Of a stretch of DNA of 57,039 bases, positions 3,757 through 15,814 are shown piece after piece. The translations under genes and the position numbers were made by a program. The DNA is from a virus. Position 1 is the first letter of the stretch. Each line of letters starts with the position of its first letter. The stretch lies in IMG/VR virus record IMGVR_UViG_3300017598_000221, positions 1 to 57,039 of that record; one strand, given 5' to 3'. The notes under the pieces were generated by a model. It was not told the origin of the DNA and made no database searches. It saw only the letters and a list, made by a program, of their open reading frames with translations.

Positions 3757-4146
3757 ATGAATATAGAAGACTTAACAATAGGCGAAATCAGACAAATAAA
3801 GGCAATGTTTGCAGCACCATCTGCTTCAGCAGAAAAGAACCAAGCAGGTTTAACCAACGGTATATTAGGAAAGAAATGTATTATCAGAACATATAGTGCA
3901 GGTGTTTGGTTCGGAGAAGTAGTTGAAAAATCATCAACTGAGTGTATCATCAAAAATGCAAGACGTATGTACTACTGGAACAACATCAAAGGTATCTCAC
4001 TAAGTGAAACATCACTATATGGATTGAAAGATGACTCAAAAATTCAAGCTCCTGTAGACAAAGTATTGCTTCAGCAAATCGAACTTATACCATGTACTGA
4101 CACAGCAATAGAATCAATAGAGTCTAAACCAAACTACTCATGTTAA
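3757..4146 (+). CDS. DUF6948-like phage protein, 129 aa
   Basis: The central region GKKCIIRTYSAGVWFGEV, then NARRMYYWNNIKGISLSE, and the end VDKVLLQQIELIPCTDTAIE followed by SIE closely resemble, from memory, a widespread phage protein family annotated DUF6948 ('RTYSAGVWFG...ARRMWYW...ISLS...IEIIPCT..AI-SIE'). Its biochemical role is unknown to me. The stop overlaps the first of four tandem Gly-X repeat genes (ATG 4140), implying translational coupling. Confidence 0.6.
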   Translation: MNIEDLTIGEIRQIKAMFAAPSASAEKNQAGLTNGILGKKCIIRTYSAGVWFGEVVEKSSTECIIKNARRMYYWNNIKGISLSETSLYGLKDDSKIQAPVDKVLLQQIELIPCTDTAIESIESKPNYSC

Positions 4147-4367
4147 ATACTAAAGACTCAGCCAAAAATGGACGTGGAGATGGACATGGACGTGGAGATG
4201 GACATGGAGATGGACGTGGTTATGGAGATGGAAGTGGATATGGCTATGGAAGTGGACATGGACGTGGACATGGAGATGGAGATGGAAGTGGATATGGACG
4301 TGGAGGTGGAAGCGGATGTGGAGCTGGTTATGGAAGTGGAGCTGGAGCTGGAAGCGGACATGGATAA
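4140..4367 (+). CDS. Gly-X repeat protein 1, 75 aa
   Basis: The frame is chosen because it starts with the header MLNTKDSAKNG shared by all four paralogues and because its ATG overlaps the upstream stop. After the header, glycine occupies every second residue (GGA codons), alternating with Asp, His, Arg, Tyr, Ser and Ala. The chain should be disordered or form a glycine-rich sheet/helix. His/Asp density could bind metal. It ends GGATAATG, where the TAA overlaps the next ATG by one base. Other frames are also open, an effect of the GGANNT composition. Function unknown. Confidence 0.6.
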   Translation: MLNTKDSAKNGRGDGHGRGDGHGDGRGYGDGSGYGYGSGHGRGHGDGDGSGYGRGGGSGCGAGYGSGAGAGSGHG

Positions 4368-4612
4368 TGTTAAATACTAAAGACTCAACCAAAAATGGAG
4401 ATGGACATGGACATGGATATGGAAGTGGAAGTGGTTATGGTTATGCAGATGGAGCTGGAAGTGGAAGTGGATATGGAGATGGACATGGATATGGACGTGG
4501 AAATGGACATGGATATGGAAATGGAGATGGATATGGACATGGATATGGAGCTGGACATGGACATGGAAGTGGAGACGGAGCTGGAGACGGAGCTGGACAT
4601 GGAGATGGATAA
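4367..4612 (+). CDS. Gly-X repeat protein 2, 81 aa
   Basis: Starts at the ATG overlapping the stop of copy 1 by one base. The header is MLNTKDSTKNG, then alternating glycine with Asp, His, Tyr, Ser, Ala, Asn and Arg. A longer upstream start in the same frame (4316) lies inside copy 1 and lacks the shared header, so it is rejected. Paralogue of the neighbouring three genes. No catalytic residues and no signal peptide. Confidence 0.6.
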   Translation: MLNTKDSTKNGDGHGHGYGSGSGYGYADGAGSGSGYGDGHGYGRGNGHGYGNGDGYGHGYGAGHGHGSGDGAGDGAGHGDG

Positions 4613-4851
4613 TGTTAAACACTAAAGACTCAGCCAAAAGTGGAAGTGGACATGGACATGGAAGTAGAAGTGGATATGAGAATGGAAGTGGTTATGGCTA
4701 TGGAGACGGAAGTGGATATGGACATGGAAGCGGAAGTGGAGACGGAGCTGGACATGGACATGGAAGCGGAGCTGGAGACGGAGACGGAGATGGAAGTGGA
4801 AGTGGAGTTGTAAGTGGAGCTGGACGTGGAAATGGAAGTGGATATGGATAA
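4612..4851 (+). CDS. Gly-X repeat protein 3, 79 aa
   Basis: One-base stop/start overlap with copy 2. The header is MLNTKDSAKSG, followed by Gly alternating with Ser, His, Tyr, Asp and Ala, with rare interruptions such as YENGS and VVSG. Same predicted low-complexity architecture as its neighbours. Confidence 0.6.
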   Translation: MLNTKDSAKSGSGHGHGSRSGYENGSGYGYGDGSGYGHGSGSGDGAGHGHGSGAGDGDGDGSGSGVVSGAGRGNGSGYG

Positions 4852-5108
4852 TGTTAAACACTAAAGACTCAGACAAAACTAAAAATGGACATGGTTATGG
4901 ACATGGCTATGGAAGCGGATATGGAGATGGATATGGAGATGGACGTGGACGTGGACGTGGATATGGACATGGAAGCGGAAACGGACATGGTTATGGAGAC
5001 GGAAGTGGAAGTGGATATGAGAATGGAAGTGGAGATGGAAGCGGAGCTGGTTATGGAAGTGGAGATGGAAGTGGACATGGACATGGAGATGGAGATGGAG
5101 ATGGATAA
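4851..5108 (+). CDS. Gly-X repeat protein 4, 85 aa
   Basis: One-base overlap with copy 3. The header is expanded to MLNTKDSDKTKNG, then the Gly-X repeat, with a GRGRGRGYG stretch and an end rich in HGDGDGDG. It overlaps the next gene (ATG 5101) by 8 bp in another frame. It is the last of the four and the longest. Confidence 0.6.
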   Translation: MLNTKDSDKTKNGHGYGHGYGSGYGDGYGDGRGRGRGYGHGSGNGHGYGDGSGSGYENGSGDGSGAGYGSGDGSGHGHGDGDGDG

Positions 5109-5316
5109 ACTAACTATAGAATGTGAAGGTATAGATGATATATCCTCACGATACAACGAACAACACATGCAGGTTACTATGAGTAATGTAGACCCACAGT
5201 TCATAGCCGACCTAGATGAAGCTGATGTGGTTCAGTACATAGAGAACCACTTACTACTTAAAGCTATTGGCGTAGAAGAAGTAGCTAAATGGCTAAAGGA
5301 AATTAGTTATGAGTAA
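5101..5316 (+). CDS. Unknown acidic protein, 71 aa
   Basis: ATG 5101 overlaps the end of Gly-X copy 4. The same frame stays open back to 4885 only through the Met/Asp/Glu shadow of the repeat, so 5101 is taken as the start. The acidic helical protein (ADLDEADVVQYIENHLLL, then GVEEVAKWLKEISYE) has no recognised family. It overlaps the next start by 8 bp. Confidence 0.55.
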   Translation: MDKLTIECEGIDDISSRYNEQHMQVTMSNVDPQFIADLDEADVVQYIENHLLLKAIGVEEVAKWLKEISYE

Positions 5317-5476
5317 CAAGCAAAATGATAGAAGTTGGCAACTATGGTCTGATGAAGAAGATGAGAAGGTAGCCTACATGCTATCTCATGGTTACACAGT
5401 AAAAGAGGTAGCTGTAGACATTGGTAGAACCAGTCAAGCTATCTACAATAGAATAAACTCGCTAAAGGACAAATGA
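5309..5476 (+). CDS. Myb/SANT- or HTH-like DNA-binding protein, 55 aa
   Basis: Starts inside the upstream stop region (ATG 5309). The sequence SWQLWSDEEDEKVAYML, then YTVKEVAVDIGRTSQAIYNR, then INSLK, shows a Trp-anchored acidic first helix and a clear helix-turn-helix ('vkevA..igRt..ai..Ri..L') as in SANT/Myb-like or Trip-type phage regulators. The whole protein is one DNA-binding domain. It overlaps the next gene by 4 bp (ATGATG). Confidence 0.65.
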   Translation: MSNKQNDRSWQLWSDEEDEKVAYMLSHGYTVKEVAVDIGRTSQAIYNRINSLKDK

Positions 5477-6273
5477 TGAAGTATCCGGTAGTGTGTCCAA
5501 TGTGTGACACTACAAGAGAAGTTGATTCCTCTACATTCTGTAGGATGGATAAAGTAGATGGCTCAATTGTACGTCAAGGACGATGTACAGATTGCTATAA
5601 CAAAAACAGAAAAGATAAAAAACAAGGAAAGAAAACATATAAATTATATTGTCCCAAGTGTGATGAAAGTAGAGAGATAAGTAGAAGTTCATTCTACTCA
5701 GTACCAACCACAACTAACTCAGATGGTTCCAGAACCAAGTTATGTGTCAAGCATTGTAAGGTATATGAAACAGAAGATAGAACATGTGAACAGTGTGGAA
5801 AGACTGAAGAAGTATACACTAAAGCTAAGAAATCTAATCTATGTAAAGCATGTATAAAAAAAGATTCAAACAAAAGATATAGAGCTAGAACTGTAAAGCC
5901 TATTGTAAAGAAAGATAAAAAACCTAAAGAGAACAAATGGTATCCATTAGACTGTAGTAGATGTGGTCAAATAAAGCGTTACAAGGTCAAAGAAGATGCA
6001 GACCATGATATGTGTAAGAAATGTAGAGTAGCAATATCAACTCGCTGTAAAGGTACGTCAGCATCTAAACTAAAGAAAGGATATCAACCTATCTCAAAAA
6101 AACCTGATGCTAAACCTAAACGTAAAAAAATATCTTCACAAGAGAGAGTATTTCAGAAGTTGGTTCAAGAGTTTGATACTAAACCTAAACCACCTAAAGA
6201 TATGGAAACTAGACCATTCACAACTGAAGAACAATCCATGATAGATGAGTTCTTATCTAAAAGGAAAAACTAA
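5473..6273 (+). CDS. Multi-zinc-ribbon protein, 266 aa
   Basis: Four Cys-pair modules are visible: CPMCD...C...CTDC, CPKCD with a later KHC, CEQCG...CKAC, and CSRCG...CKKC. These are joined by Lys-rich linkers and followed by a basic tail and an acidic C-terminal helix. Each C-x2-C pair set resembles a zinc ribbon, so the protein probably binds nucleic acid or a polymerase through several small zinc modules. ATG 5476, three bases later, is better spaced from AAAGGA and may be the real start. It heads a run of small Cys-rich proteins up to 7085. Confidence 0.6.
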   Translation: MMKYPVVCPMCDTTREVDSSTFCRMDKVDGSIVRQGRCTDCYNKNRKDKKQGKKTYKLYCPKCDESREISRSSFYSVPTTTNSDGSRTKLCVKHCKVYETEDRTCEQCGKTEEVYTKAKKSNLCKACIKKDSNKRYRARTVKPIVKKDKKPKENKWYPLDCSRCGQIKRYKVKEDADHDMCKKCRVAISTRCKGTSASKLKKGYQPISKKPDAKPKRKKISSQERVFQKLVQEFDTKPKPPKDMETRPFTTEEQSMIDEFLSKRKN

Positions 6274-10613: not shown

Positions 10614-10634
10614 GGTATTCATAGATGTAAATCC
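10614..10634 (+). promoter_or_regulatory. Post-stop element copy 2
   Basis: GGTATTCA (10614-10621) then TGTAAATCC (10626-10634), 5 bp after the stop at 10608. Shortest spacing of the seven copies. Confidence 0.45.
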
Positions 10635-10641
10635 AGTTATT

Positions 10642-10947
10642 GAAGCGAACTGAAGTGAAAAGAACCGAATCGAACTGAAGGGAAAAGAAGTGAAGGGAAA
10701 TGAACTGCCTATCTTAGATAGTTAGAACCAAACTTTATGTTGGTTCTAAGGTGTCTACGATGCTAAGCGAAGCGAATTGAAATGAAGTGAAGTGAAATGA
10801 AACGAAATGAACTGAATCGAACTGAACTGAACTGCTAGAGCATATGTAAGTATGTTCTTTGGAGTTTAACTCTAAATGAATTGAAAAGAAATGAAGTGAA
10901 AAGAACTGAAAAGAAGGGAAAAGAAGAGAAGCGAAGAGAACTGAACT
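10642..10947 (+). repeat. Three phased (GAANN)n pentamer arrays
   Basis: Array 1 is 10642-10706 (13 units), array 2 is 10769-10833 (13 units), array 3 is 10878-10947 (14 units). GAA recurs exactly every 5 bp while the two following bases vary. Every array ends with GAACT then G. Spacers are 62 and 44 bp. The first contains a 10-bp hairpin TTAGAACCAA/TTGGTTCTAA (10722-10749), the second a TGTAAG word. Frequent TGA triplets make it non-coding. The stretch 10609-11007 has no gene. Candidate replication origin, iteron-like protein array or structured leader RNA; inference only. Confidence 0.9.
10722..10749 (+). promoter_or_regulatory. 10-bp GAACCA hairpin between arrays 1 and 2
   Basis: TTAGAACCAA (10722-10731) and TTGGTTCTAA (10740-10749) form a perfect 10-bp stem with an 8-nt loop, built on the window-wide hexamer. 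Confidence 0.5.
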
Positions 10948-11007
10948 GTTAGGATGCCTCTAGGGGTGTCTTATACAGTCCATGAGACTTAAAGCAAAAG
11001 GAACAAT

Positions 11008-11559: not shown

Positions 11560-11712
11560 ATGGCAGATTCATTGCAAGACATCATAGCTAAGAAGCTTAA
11601 AGATAAAGCATCTACAACAGGAGGTACAGCACCAGTAGCTACTACTGTAAGTACAACATCGTTAAAGAAAAGCTCGGATTCGGGCGACAATTCGGACCGA
11701 CTAGACTGCTAA
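11560..11712 (+). CDS. Small Ser/Thr/Lys-rich protein, 50 aa
   Basis: ATG 11560 follows GGAG with ideal spacing. A short amphipathic helix (LQDIIAKKLKDKA) leads into a disordered Thr/Ser/Ala stretch and ends SDRLDC. The last 12 codons use several TCG/GGC/GAC/CGA codons unusual for this AT-rich genome. It lies directly upstream of the E1-like gene, so it could be a substrate or accessory of the cassette. It is too short for a ubiquitin fold and lacks a Gly-Gly end, so that role is speculative. Confidence 0.6.
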   Translation: MADSLQDIIAKKLKDKASTTGGTAPVATTVSTTSLKKSSDSGDNSDRLDC

Positions 11713-11718
11713 TTTACA

Positions 11719-11739
11719 CAGAACCACTAAGTGGTTCTG
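11719..11739 (+). promoter_or_regulatory. 9-bp stem, 3-nt loop hairpin upstream of the E1-like gene
   Basis: CAGAACCAC (11719-11727), loop TAA, GTGGTTCTG (11731-11739). It sits 7 bp after one stop and 30 bp before the E1-like ATG. The 3-nt loop resembles N4 virion-polymerase promoter hairpins; a terminator is the alternative, but no T-run follows. Confidence 0.45.
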
Positions 11740-11769
11740 CACTGAGTTAACAACAAAAAAAGGACTAAA

Positions 11770-12822
11770 ATGCAAATAACAATTGACTTAAAAAATATAT
11801 ATAGAGAACAGATGGAGGTACGATATGCATTACCTGCATTATCTTACATGAGAGGTTCTAATGCAGTAGTAGATAGTTTCTACCCAACACTACTAGTAAA
11901 TGGACTTGATAACAAGGAAGCAATTAGCTCATCTACTGCATGTGCCATTTCTCCTGTTGTAGCAAAGGAGCTAAACGTACCGCAGATTCATATATCTGAA
12001 CTATGCTCACTGCTTCACTACAAAAAAAAGGATATTAAAAAAATCCTAACTGAAGTTAAATCGAAAAAGAAAAAAATACATATGCTTGGCATGGGTGGAA
12101 CTGGTTCAAACTTCGTATATTTCGTTGAAGAATTGTGTAGATGGACAAACACGATAAATATATTTAATGAAATTTTCATATCAGACAACGATACTTTTGA
12201 CATTACAAATATCCCCAGAATTCCATTCAATATGTATGGCTCAACTTCTACTTCAAAATCAGCAGTAGCATTAGATAACATTAAACTTATATCTAGAAAT
12301 ATACATTGCAAAACTTCAAAAATGTATATTTCAAACTTTATAAGTGCAGAAAAAGACACAATCTTCTATGGAGCACCAGATATTGAAACCAGAGAGATTA
12401 TCTTCGACTATAATGCAGATGAAACAAATATTGATAAAATCAATTTTGTATCTGCTACTCATGGTGGTGACAAATTTCTGTTACAAACCATACCTGAGCA
12501 GAATGAATCTCTACAAGTTGAATCATATGGACTGATTGATTTAAGTATATTCTTTATGAACCAATTAAAGATGTCAATATCATTCTTAGAAGAAATCACT
12601 AAAGATACAGATTTCTCTATTACCGCTGAACTGAAAGAGTATTCATTCAGAGATGAAATAGATAACAAGACATTTGGTTCTACATCTAAAGTACTTAACT
12701 TTCTATCACCCAAGCAAGAGCTTGTAGTACGAACAACTGAGGAACAAACAGTTCCTGATGAAACTGAACCAGTTAGCGAAGCCACAGCAGAAGAACCATT
12801 ACCTGAACTAGAAATATCATAA
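11770..12822 (+). CDS. E1/ThiF-type ubiquitin-activating-like protein, 350 aa
   Basis: A Rossmann adenylation domain is clear: G107-M-G-G-T-G112 (nucleotide loop), D139-N-D141 (ribose-binding acid), N147-I-P-R150 (the N-x-x-R arginine), K163, and D204-I-E-T-R208 (Mg/ATP). This is the residue set of E1, MoeB and ThiF enzymes, which adenylate the C-terminus of ubiquitin-like proteins. Residues 1-95 are an extra helical domain; the last 40 are an acidic Glu/Pro tail. No cysteine occurs after C180, so the usual downstream thioester cysteine seems missing. It is followed 15 bp later by the possible E2-like gene and then a JAB protease, as in bacterial ubiquitin-like operons. Ribosome site AAAAAAGGAC. 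Confidence 0.85.
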   Translation: MQITIDLKNIYREQMEVRYALPALSYMRGSNAVVDSFYPTLLVNGLDNKEAISSSTACAISPVVAKELNVPQIHISELCSLLHYKKKDIKKILTEVKSKKKKIHMLGMGGTGSNFVYFVEELCRWTNTINIFNEIFISDNDTFDITNIPRIPFNMYGSTSTSKSAVALDNIKLISRNIHCKTSKMYISNFISAEKDTIFYGAPDIETREIIFDYNADETNIDKINFVSATHGGDKFLLQTIPEQNESLQVESYGLIDLSIFFMNQLKMSISFLEEITKDTDFSITAELKEYSFRDEIDNKTFGSTSKVLNFLSPKQELVVRTTEEQTVPDETEPVSEATAEEPLPELEIS

Positions 12823-12837
12823 CAAGGAGAAACAAAA

Positions 12838-13992
12838 ATGTCATTATTCAACAACGCAATACTAAATAGACAAACATCATTTCAAAAAATTGCTTCAGAA
12901 TTCAAAGCTGATGCAATTGCAGATATTGAAAAAAATGTAAAAGAAATGGTTTCAGTACACAAAGACACAAACGATTCAATAGTAGATAGGTCGCATATAG
13001 CCAGCGAAAAAGATAGACTTATCTTTGAAGTGTCTCATTCAAAACTATTAGACGATATAGTTGAAGCAAACCATGTTCAACGCATCCCCAAACCATTTGG
13101 TTCACTGTATAACGAAGTAACATCAAACAAATCATTGGTATACATAAAAGGGAAGATGCCATTATCTGAAATAATAGAAATGGCTAACAGTCTGTATGAA
13201 ACACTTCCTGATACATTCTACGGAGTATTAGTTAAGCATGGAAAACATAAATTCTACAATCCTCTTCACCCACTAATAGCCAATGCTATGGTAGAGGGAG
13301 GTGAAGATATGAATCTAGAACATGAAGCAGTATTCTTTACATCATCAAAAACTCAAAAATCAGACAAAGATATTATAAATGAAGAAAAAGAGAACATAGT
13401 AAATATCATTACTTCTATGAGTATACCTACTAGCAATCAAATTCATAAAGTTACAAACATTAGTACTAGACTCAACGATTCATTAATGATAGTTGATTTT
13501 GATGCATATGACAAAAAAGGAAATTTAGTTGTAAAGGAGAATGATGCTAAATTTATAGTTCCAAATCAAATTATAAATAGTACCATTATTGCTCCGTACT
13601 ACGGTATATCATGTATAAACAGAACAGGTACTACACTGACTGGAGCTGCTTTAACAAAAGATATGCGTAGTGCAAACATATCTTCTAGTCATATGTGGAG
13701 TGCTGTTTGTACTGGCGGTAAAGGACATGATAAGTCTGGAATCAGAACACTATCACATTCCAATCATAAAAGCCCAATGTCAAACACTGTACTAACTGAA
13801 AACACATGGAACTTAGTTAGAGCATCTATAGAGACATCTTTGATGATATATGGATACACGTATGAACTAAATATAAAAGAGCCAATTAAGCGTATTGCCT
13901 TCGATGAGTGGAAAGCATTATCTGAAGATAATATAGAAATAGTAGACTACATGAATATGTTGTCTGAAATAAAATCACAGGAGATATCATGA
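12838..13992 (+). CDS. Possible E2-like conjugation protein, 384 aa
   Basis: Preceded by AAGGAGAAACAAAAATG and sandwiched between the E1-like and JAB genes. The C-terminal third has strands followed by H285-M-W-S-A-V-C291-T-G-G, reminiscent of the His...Cys-x-Gly active-site stretch of bacterial E2-like proteins (including the PRTRC-B type). After it come a loop and long helices (ENTWNLVRASIETSLMIYGY). The N-terminal 200 residues (VEANHVQRIPKPFGSLYNEV; HPLIANAMVEGG) are unrecognised. The E2 call rests mainly on context plus one motif. A phage-specific substrate or scaffold of the cassette is the main alternative. It overlaps the JAB start by 4 bp (ATGA). Confidence 0.4.
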   Translation: MSLFNNAILNRQTSFQKIASEFKADAIADIEKNVKEMVSVHKDTNDSIVDRSHIASEKDRLIFEVSHSKLLDDIVEANHVQRIPKPFGSLYNEVTSNKSLVYIKGKMPLSEIIEMANSLYETLPDTFYGVLVKHGKHKFYNPLHPLIANAMVEGGEDMNLEHEAVFFTSSKTQKSDKDIINEEKENIVNIITSMSIPTSNQIHKVTNISTRLNDSLMIVDFDAYDKKGNLVVKENDAKFIVPNQIINSTIIAPYYGISCINRTGTTLTGAALTKDMRSANISSSHMWSAVCTGGKGHDKSGIRTLSHSNHKSPMSNTVLTENTWNLVRASIETSLMIYGYTYELNIKEPIKRIAFDEWKALSEDNIEIVDYMNMLSEIKSQEIS

Positions 13993-15095
13993 TAGGATTC
14001 AACAAGTCAAAAGAAGAAAACAAGTTGTCAATCAAAAGAGGAAAAGCGAGTAGCTATTATTCACTATTCCTTCATACCAATAAAGCACTAGAGGAATACA
14101 GAACCAACAGTGGGATGTCTCCTCAATACTCTTCCGAGTATCAGCATCATTACTGGTTCACCACCTTTCGTATGCAGGTAGAGTCAGAGATTCTTGATAT
14201 TCATGTGCCAATCGTTATGTATAATTACCCACAGACTACTACATCTGCATCTGTAAACTTCCATCTTGAACAAGTTGAAGAGAAGTCTGACAAATTATTA
14301 TCACTAGCAGAAGAGAAAACAAAAGAGTTGTTATCATCATCTTTTGGTGAAACCATCACTGGTCTACTTCCAGTAGATATCAAGCTTGTCCCACTGGGAA
14401 CTCTCCACACTCATCCGGGCAAACTAGACTCATTCTCTGGAACAGACTATGGGGATAACCCTGAAAACCCCGGAATCGTGCATCCTATATCAACTATATC
14501 AGAAAAGAATACTCCATCGGTATCATCAATAGTCTGTCATTCTAAAGGCATAGCTAAGTTGGTTCATACAGAGTCTTGCCTAGTAAACATAAATGATAAT
14601 GTCATTACCTATTCAAAAGGCAAGACAGCATCTTATGTCAGAAGCGGAACTGGAAAAGAACCAAGCCCTATTCAATCTATGTTCTTTGAGCAAGAAAAAC
14701 TACCATCATATGAAGTAGATAGTGGAATCTCGTACTTAGAGAACGAAATAATCAAACCTGTCATTGATGAATGGGAAGCATCTAAATTTGAAATTGATAC
14801 TAGCAACATCTTAAAGGATAACGTAAACCCTGCTAAAAAATCAGTAAAAAAAGATTTTAATACTAAATCTAAATTCAATCTAATTGATTCAGCTGAACCA
14901 ATCTTTATCCTTGGTAACATATTTTATAAAGACGAAACATATACTGAAGATGACATAGATTATATGAGAGATGAGCTATCTGAACTAAATATATTCGATG
15001 TAAAAAGATTATCACTTATGCCTAGCAAGTCAGTAGTAAAAATATATGTTGATGAAGGATTCGGAGATACTATAAAACGGAGATACAAATGTTAA
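13989..15095 (+). CDS. JAB/JAMM-domain isopeptidase-like protein, 368 aa
   Basis: H140-T-H142-(7 residues)-S150-G-T-D153 is an exact JAMM zinc motif (H-x-H-x10-D with the conserved Ser), the active site of JAB proteases that mature or remove ubiquitin-like tags. Flanking sequence (LGTLHTHPGKLDSFSGTDYG) is typical of bacterial and phage JAB proteins. An N-terminal region of about 70 residues precedes the fold, and residues about 220-368 form a separate helical/acidic extension. ATGA overlap with the possible E2-like gene and 7-bp overlap with the next gene argue for a single operon with the E1-like protein. Confidence 0.85.
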   Translation: MIGFNKSKEENKLSIKRGKASSYYSLFLHTNKALEEYRTNSGMSPQYSSEYQHHYWFTTFRMQVESEILDIHVPIVMYNYPQTTTSASVNFHLEQVEEKSDKLLSLAEEKTKELLSSSFGETITGLLPVDIKLVPLGTLHTHPGKLDSFSGTDYGDNPENPGIVHPISTISEKNTPSVSSIVCHSKGIAKLVHTESCLVNINDNVITYSKGKTASYVRSGTGKEPSPIQSMFFEQEKLPSYEVDSGISYLENEIIKPVIDEWEASKFEIDTSNILKDNVNPAKKSVKKDFNTKSKFNLIDSAEPIFILGNIFYKDETYTEDDIDYMRDELSELNIFDVKRLSLMPSKSVVKIYVDEGFGDTIKRRYKC

Positions 15096-15814
15096 ATGAA
15101 TTAATCATTGAAGATGCTAAAAACAGTCGTGATGATAAAAAACAACTAACCTTGCCTTTATCATTTATAAGCGAAGAGATTATGTTTAATTACATAAATC
15201 TAGTCTACAACACTGATGAAGAAGATACTAATGACAACATCCTTGTATCAAACTATTTAAATTTAGATGTACAAAAATGTAAAAATCTTTTACTTGCAAA
15301 AGCGGATAATCCGACAATTCTAATTAGTTATCAAATAATTAATGACATACCAATTGAAATTGATATGTCATCTATAGTCTTTGATGGAGAGAACATTCAC
15401 TTAGTGAAAAAAGCGAGGTTCAATTCTATTCAACATATCGAAGAAGATATGACACATAGATATTGGAATGAAGCAATTTTAGCATTAGTAATTTTAGAAA
15501 AATTGAACTATTCAGTAAATAGATTGATGATTCATGTCATTGTATCAAATCAATCAGCAGGAGATGAAAAAATTCACACCATCTCTAAAAATAAACATCA
15601 TTTTACATATGAACATACAGAAGTTGGAAAATTAGCTGAAGAGAAAATAAAACGTTTATGGGAACAAATACAAACTGGCATAGAACCATCTGTCTGTACT
15701 GACACTTGGAATAACAAAAAATGCGAAACATATTGCCAATACGCAAGTCATAGACTTGGATTATGCTCAAAAGGATTAAACAATGAAAGCAGTGATAACC
15801 AACCACCATTCTGA
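15089..15814 (+). CDS. Cys-cluster protein, nuclease-like, 241 aa
   Basis: The C-terminus has CTDTWNNKKCETYCQYASHR then LGLC, a C-x8-C-x3-C-x9-C spacing that resembles the Fe-S or zinc clusters closing Cas4/AddB-type nucleases. A similar tail occurs in the PD-(D/E)XK nuclease at 16824. The central IEIDMSSIVFDGENIHLVKK could be a degenerate nuclease core (D...x-K). It overlaps the JAB gene by 7 bp and the next gene by 32 bp. The nuclease assignment is tentative; it might instead be an accessory of the E1/JAB cassette. Confidence 0.45.
   Translation: MLNELIIEDAKNSRDDKKQLTLPLSFISEEIMFNYINLVYNTDEEDTNDNILVSNYLNLDVQKCKNLLLAKADNPTILISYQIINDIPIEIDMSSIVFDGENIHLVKKARFNSIQHIEEDMTHRYWNEAILALVILEKLNYSVNRLMIHVIVSNQSAGDEKIHTISKNKHHFTYEHTEVGKLAEEKIKRLWEQIQTGIEPSVCTDTWNNKKCETYCQYASHRLGLCSKGLNNESSDNQPPF

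Follow-up and report, generated by a model that had tools for sequence, protein, structure and literature searches.

In the bacterial Bil system, a ubiquitin-activating enzyme (E1), a ubiquitin-conjugating enzyme (E2), a JAB protease and a modifier are encoded in one operon, and the modifier, as in other bacterial ubiquitin-like conjugation operons, is a beta-grasp protein. The QbsCDE and ThiS-ThiF-JAMM systems also use a beta-grasp carrier; a JAMM protease removes a short tail after its glycine, and an E1-like enzyme adenylates it. Pup, a short and disordered modifier, is conjugated through its C-terminal end, a glutamate, by PafA, without E1, E2 or JAMM. Apart from the candidate described below, we know of no dedicated modifier of an E1/E2 cascade that is not a beta-grasp protein. 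In the type II cyclic-oligonucleotide-based anti-phage signalling system (CBASS), E1, E2 and JAB activities (Cap2, an E2-E1 fusion, and Cap3) act jointly through a single C-terminal glycine, on cGAS, a substrate without a beta-grasp fold (PMC10097602). The PRTRC operons of plasmids, which Iyer et al. 2006 class as operon type 6d, keep E1, a Cys protein and JAB as separate genes, and their E2-like protein has a conserved His C-terminal to the Cys (PMC1779556). Here we analyze the viral record IMGVR_UViG_3300017598_000221 (57,039 nucleotides, a linear contig that may be incomplete; this whole stretch is called the window). It carries a cassette of four genes encoding a short peptide, an E1/ThiF-like enzyme, a putative E2-like protein (hereafter the middle protein) and a JAMM/JAB metalloprotease (Table 1). 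We read the cassette as a phage-encoded, reversible ubiquitin-type peptide-tagging system, and assign this reading a probability of about 0.58.

Operons from plasmids were used for the comparison with PRTRC. The phage cassette likewise has its three enzymes as separate genes, and its middle protein also has an invariant His C-terminal to the Cys. A profile comparison of the phage E1 with PRTRC ThiF gave an hhalign probability of 93% and an E-value of 3e-7, the 64 aligned columns lying about the nucleotide-binding loop; the NCBIfam PRTRC_ThiF score was 14.7 bits, with a cut-off of 144.75. When 1159 open reading frames (ORFs) from 14 PRTRC plasmid stretches were searched with the JAMM profile, the five best matches were all PRTRC_A JAB proteins, none with a significant E-value; hhalign gave an E-value of 0.001 for JAMM and PRTRC_A. 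However, the plasmid order is ParB-E-C-F-B-A-ThiF, whereas the phage order is peptide, E1, middle protein, JAMM. No significant similarity links the middle protein to PRTRC_B, and the modifier candidate is a short Ser/Thr-rich peptide, encoded in a phage genome instead of a plasmid, whose profile comparison with PRTRC_C gave a probability of 0.2%. Because the gene order differs and no PRTRC_C (beta-grasp), PRTRC_F (helical) or PRTRC ParB gene was seen in the phage neighborhoods, membership in PRTRC was rejected.

The other systems are set apart in different ways. Type II CBASS has a fused E2-E1, whereas the phage E1 and middle protein are separate genes, the phage substrate would be a peptide of 38-50 residues, and no cGAS/DncV-like nucleotidyltransferase was seen among the genes of the phage operon; the cassette was thus not placed in that system. 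From Bil the cassette is separated by description only, its modifier candidate not being a beta-grasp protein and its genome not being bacterial. Pup shares with the peptide its shortness; in contrast to Pup, the phage peptide is accompanied by an E1-type enzyme, all nine known versions have a glycine followed by a variable tail, and the operon proteins had no match to PafA in family searches that included Pfam and NCBIfam, so the cassette does not belong with Pup. The QbsCDE and ThiS-ThiF-JAMM systems have no conserved Cys protein of the phage kind. We found no phage with its own full activating, carrying and deconjugating set and a dedicated modifier in the open-access papers searched.

Nine syntenic loci and their three conserved proteins

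The window phage is N4-like (Schitoviridae), as the preliminary description of this DNA had proposed, judged by its matches to the portal protein (phrog_1216, E = 5e-145) and to the C-terminus of the virion RNA polymerase (phrog_2206, E = 1.5e-28). The window portal was matched by 491 phage records. Across the 11 records searched, an N4-type portal was found in eight and a virion RNA polymerase match in seven; the remainder are contigs of 15-58 kb. Homologous loci were gathered by scanning viral contigs with single proteins and with alignments, which yielded eight further divergent metagenomic phage loci (L002, L004, L005, L009, L010, L011, L014 and L037), nine with the window. L003, which differs from L002 at 3 of 16,831 bases, was not counted separately, and an additional contig, L041, ends within the JAMM gene. 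Pairwise identities among the nine are 26-50% for E1, 19-42% for the middle protein and 23-39% for JAMM.

At all nine loci the genes for E1, the middle protein and JAMM are adjacent, in the same order and on the same strand, which exceeds chance at this divergence. The preliminary description had pointed to the three consecutive genes, and had set co-occurrence in related phages beforehand as a test of their assignment; both are borne out by the nine loci. Gene-neighborhood clustering revealed no family common to all neighborhoods besides the parts of the cassette. No convincing relatives of the three proteins were found in cultured phages (tblastn against 50,697 phage records), in plasmids, or in bacterial and archaeal genomes sampled at one per species, the latter by a scan for short conserved patterns that distant relatives could escape. 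Correlations between distance matrices over the nine loci (r = 0.69 for E1 and the middle protein, 0.39 for E1 and JAMM, 0.24 for the middle protein and JAMM) were too weak to be used as a sign of co-evolution.

The assignment of the 350-residue protein as an E1/ThiF-like adenylating enzyme of the E1/MoeB/ThiF superfamily, made earlier from the window alone, is supported by the comparison. The ThiF match does not reach the curated Pfam cut-off; the PADLOC 'E1-E2' model matches the E1 part with an E-value of 3e-5. The loop GMGGTGSN occupies residues 107-114, and G107, G109, G110, N147, R150 and K163 are invariant in the nine homologues, with D or E at position 139. No Cys is conserved among the nine.

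For the 368-residue protein, the H-x-H-x10-D motif is present exactly as first described. E50, H140-x-H142 and D153 are invariant in the nine sequences, and position 150 is S or T (in the window, E50, H140-T-H142, S150 and D153). The match to Prok-JAB is weak (Table 1). Despite such family scores, the catalytic set supports this protein as a JAMM/MPN+ protease.

Searches of Pfam, PHROGs and NCBIfam returned no family for the middle protein. Among its complete versions, those of L009 and L010 are the shortest. Its assignment as an E2 had been based on a stretch from H285 to C291. Alignment of the nine sequences retained C291 and disproved the pairing: H285 is present in the window only, so this basis for the assignment was rejected, and the invariant His is the downstream H307. 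Also invariant are N280 and V290-C291-x-G293; a PYYG motif occupies 253-256. The profile of the middle protein weakly resembles that of PRTRC_B (Prok-E2 family D). Of 200 comparisons with shuffled columns, two scored as high as the real one, and none of 200 did so with both the Cys and the His residues aligned; the segment and options were picked after the sequences had been seen, which makes this result suggestive only. In direct searches with hidden Markov models, neither the middle protein nor PRTRC_B retrieved the other. Since C291 with a His behind it is consistent with the E2 family found in PRTRC-type operons, a role as an E2-like carrier is plausible, with a ubiquitin-conjugating (UBC) fold established by neither AlphaFold nor profiles.

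The peptide gene and its hairpin

At all nine loci an ORF of 38-50 codons with its own ribosome-binding site lies upstream of E1. The encoded peptides are Ser/Thr-rich in most cases and contain few aromatic residues. In a leave-one-out test, a profile built from seven peptides was run against all ORFs of 30-70 residues from the eighth locus. The peptide ranked first at 8/8 loci, among 69-383 short ORFs (in the window, first of 383), with E-values from 6e-15 (L010) to 0.04 (the window, whose peptide diverges most among these eight). The ninth peptide, MADNTEEFDLDALIEEMAENEEEQITITSVEGGVSEAKSKSGVHPN of L037, was located later at the expected place, behind a good ribosome-binding site and with the end EAKSKSG/VHPN; its identification rests on position and C-terminal motif.

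The window peptide reads MADSLQDIIAKKLKDKASTTGGTAPVATTVSTTSLKKSSDSG/DNSDRLDC, with a slash at the predicted JAMM cleavage site, directly behind the invariant G42. All nine peptides show a Ser/Lys-rich stretch, then an invariant Gly, then a tail of one to eight residues with no conserved sequence (DNSDRLDC, Y, K, Q, S, I, NR, LL and VHPN). An invariant Gly with a dispensable-looking tail is a hallmark of ubiquitin-like precursors that need trimming by a protease. By its length and low complexity, the peptide is too small and simple for a beta-grasp domain. The preliminary description had placed a 50-residue Ser/Thr protein correctly, yet treated it as a mere flank and called the modifier not obvious. 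The comparative evidence across nine loci revises both statements: the peptide is a conserved fourth component of the cassette and the best candidate for its modifier.

In four loci, a conserved protein of 85-103 residues is encoded immediately before the peptide gene (L002 7096-7383, L004 5409-5720, L010 7361-7618 and L037 3369-3641). Judged by eye, it is probably a beta-beta-alpha-beta protein. In L010 and L037 its KGE end is encoded where the peptide's ribosome-binding site lies. As a modifier it was rejected because none was seen adjoining the triad in the window, L005 or L009. In L037, an ORF at 3840-4727 between peptide and E1 encodes 295 residues and resembles an HNH-type endonuclease by eye.

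A strong RNA hairpin follows the peptide gene in 8/8 loci tested, with z-scores of -2.7 to -6.1 (below -3 in seven of them). As a control, 4/28 intergenic gaps of similar length from the same loci had z < -3. In the window the 9-bp stem is formed by CAGAACCAC and GTGGTTCTG, and an outer extension of the stem spans 11710-11749. The position of the hairpin is kept, and the stem sequences are unrelated between loci. In L037, with its inserted HNH-type gene, the first half of the gap is without a hairpin and the second half has a weak one (z -2.1). Because it follows the peptide gene, the hairpin probably sets expression of the peptide above that of the enzymes.

Table 1. Positions of the cassette genes, the hairpin and the downstream neighbor in the window.
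Feature	Position	Strand	Evidence
Candidate modifier, 50-residue Ser/Thr-rich peptide	11560-11712	+	Homologous ORF at 9/9 loci; Shine-Dalgarno GGAG
RNA hairpin between peptide and E1	11719-11739	+	9-bp stem; z about -5 relative to shuffles
E1/ThiF-like adenylating enzyme, 350 residues	11770-12822	+	Pfam ThiF E = 4e-5; residues invariant in nine
Putative E2-like carrier, 384 residues	12838-13992	+	Kept in nine loci; C291 and H307 invariant
JAMM/JAB metalloprotease, 368 residues	13989-15095	+	Prok-JAB E = 0.013; JAMM set invariant in nine
Cys-cluster neighbor outside the conserved core, 241 residues	15089-15814	+	Overlaps the JAB stop codon

Proposed peptide tagging and alternative explanations

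The tagging reading builds on the conservation and synteny of the four parts, their catalytic residues, the Gly with its variable tail, the hairpin, and the family similarity of E1 and JAMM. Cap2/Cap3, acting on cGAS in CBASS, provide a precedent for such a set working on a substrate that is not a beta-grasp protein (PMC10097602). In the cycle we propose, the peptide would be produced above the level of the enzymes owing to the hairpin behind its gene, JAMM would trim the variable C-terminal tail and expose the invariant Gly, and E1 would adenylate this Gly. As no Cys is conserved in E1, the peptide would pass from it straight to C291 in the middle protein and form a thioester there, with H307 nearby. 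Conjugation to lysines on phage or host proteins would follow, and JAMM could detach the peptide again, reversing the tagging. A narrower version, in which the tag is a Pup-like peptide of 38-50 residues, probably disordered and not of the beta-grasp fold, that a ubiquitin-type cascade places on proteins during infection by large N4-like phages, we hold tentatively, at slightly below even odds. The targets are a guess that does not derive from the data: they might be neighboring replication and recombination proteins, given the nuclease, helicase and primase genes close to the cassette, or the tagging might serve counter-defence. If the reading is true, some 40 residues are enough for a ubiquitin-type tag; this has implications for the origins of such cascades, and the cassette provides a tagging tool of very small size. 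A further question is what a lytic phage gains from tagging proteins, and whose proteins these are.

Several results weigh against peptide tagging. AlphaFold models of the middle protein, from alignments of four and eight sequences, had mean predicted local distance difference test scores of 33 and 44, and the model had no structural match (best Foldseek E = 0.14); the hhalign probability of the middle protein with PRTRC_B was only 2% (E about 0.03). In E1, the position of D204 varies among the nine homologues. The score of the window peptide in the leave-one-out test is weak, the peptides are of low complexity and their profile scores may in part reflect composition, and the peptide profile missed the L037 peptide among the ORFs listed for that locus. 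In L005 and L037 another gene lies between peptide and E1. Finally, L002 (10029-11745) and L014 (9887-11088) each encode JAMM in two separate ORFs. The split is at the same site in both, just after H-x-H-P, and divides the E and H-x-H from S-x-x-D, which belongs to the second chain. The downstream halves start independently, and between the halves lie a 109-residue ORF in L002 and a few bases in L014. An intron in L002 was rejected because there was no Rfam match, as was stop-codon read-through in L014, where the stop has another behind it in frame and the downstream half begins in a different frame. Either the protease is reassembled from two chains at these loci, or it is dispensable there.

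The enzymes might instead serve an unrecognized beta-grasp protein encoded elsewhere, as in PRTRC operons, with the short peptide acting as a leader or operon regulator. A peptide ahead of an operon with a hairpin after it does resemble an attenuator, the 85-103-residue protein upstream in L002, L004, L010 and L037 could have the beta-beta-alpha-beta arrangement, and the modifier of the 6d/PRTRC operon is a beta-grasp protein (PMC1779556). We nevertheless consider this explanation unlikely. The neighborhoods have no such candidate in common, whole genomes not having been searched for distant beta-grasp folds, no homologue of the small upstream protein was seen beside the triad in the window, L005 or L009, and a leader does not need an invariant Gly one to eight residues from its end. 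That the peptide is a precursor, converted by E1 and its partner enzymes to a small modified product directed at the host or at competing phages, is very improbable in our estimation. It would account for the conserved peptide end, and in microcin C7, too, a short peptide gene adjoins that of a ThiF-like enzyme. MccB adenylates the microcin C7 peptide, a heptapeptide, whereas the phage peptides have 38-50 residues and a variable tail after the Gly. Moreover, MccB systems have neither a conserved JAMM nor a Cys carrier, and no exporter or self-immunity gene was common to the phage neighborhoods.

The peptide might also be a sulfur carrier, trimmed by JAMM and adenylated by E1, whose C-terminal thiocarboxylate donates sulfur to tRNA or a cofactor as in ThiF/ThiS or QbsCDE. 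An E1 without a conserved Cys is what MoeB and ThiF enzymes have, and QbsD and QbsE provide a precedent for tail trimming by a JAMM protease. Known sulfur carriers are beta-grasp proteins, however, no sulfur donor, rhodanese or thiolation enzyme was common to the neighborhoods, and the conserved Cys protein would be left unexplained; we give the sulfur-carrier explanation little credence. Equally little goes to a different role for the same chemistry, with the peptide as a decoy or tag that disarms host immunity based on conjugation (Bil, CBASS). Host E1-E2-JAB systems do block phages (PMC10097602), and the gene directly after the L009 cassette encodes a metallo-beta-lactamase-fold protein that weakly resembles Apyc1 (E = 3e-8, under the Pfam cut-off). 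But such a gene is near the cassette at two loci only (L005 and L009), and the cassette is retained across very divergent phages, where its neighbors are genes of replication and recombination and not those of a variable counter-defence island.

Neighboring genes and other features of the contigs

In the window, JAMM is followed by the Cys-cluster protein and then by recombination genes. The Cys-cluster protein was rejected as a member of the cassette, since clustering joins it to no other locus. It had no family match of its own, and is probably a PD-(D/E)XK/Cas4-type protein belonging to the adjoining recombination genes. C-terminal Cys clusters that look similar by eye are encoded near the cassette in L005 (13016-13708, PDDEXK_1 E = 0.004) and L041 (1289-1894 and 5071-5814), in proteins that are probably of the PD-(D/E)XK/Cas4 type as well.

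A reverse transcriptase gene (RVT_1, E about 1e-20) lies immediately 3' of the cassette in L011 (11220-12002) and L037 (9225-9968); both enzymes are closest to PADLOC models of the DRT/retron type. Metallo-beta-lactamase-fold genes were found at 6288-7064 in L009, directly after JAMM, and at 5767-6534 in L005, about 2 kb before E1. The similarity of the L009 protein to the anti-Pycsar protein Apyc1 is weak. In operons of type 6a, a metallo-beta-lactamase gene accompanies E2-E1-JAB fusions (Iyer et al., PMC1779556).

In-frame TAA codons occur within the portal match of the contig that carries L037 (G009) and within the virion RNA polymerase matches of those that carry L003 and L010 (G002 and G006, respectively); they reflect split genes, insertions or assembly errors. 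Three otherwise different ORFs of L005 (7527-7943, 13798-14190 and 14210-14551) all end in FILHDTN. Two of the three have a 32-nucleotide DNA repeat at the gene end in common, perhaps a regulatory element. The intergenic region of the window at 10624-10958 contains three clusters of imperfect repeats phased at five bases (..ACTGA AGTGA AAAGA ACCGA..). Short-period repeats at 4316-5316 of the window encode a Gly/His/Asp/Tyr-rich ORF of 98 residues and a Met/Asp/Glu-rich ORF of 143 residues; at this repeat region, a strong GC skew of 0.41 extends across 4001-6000.

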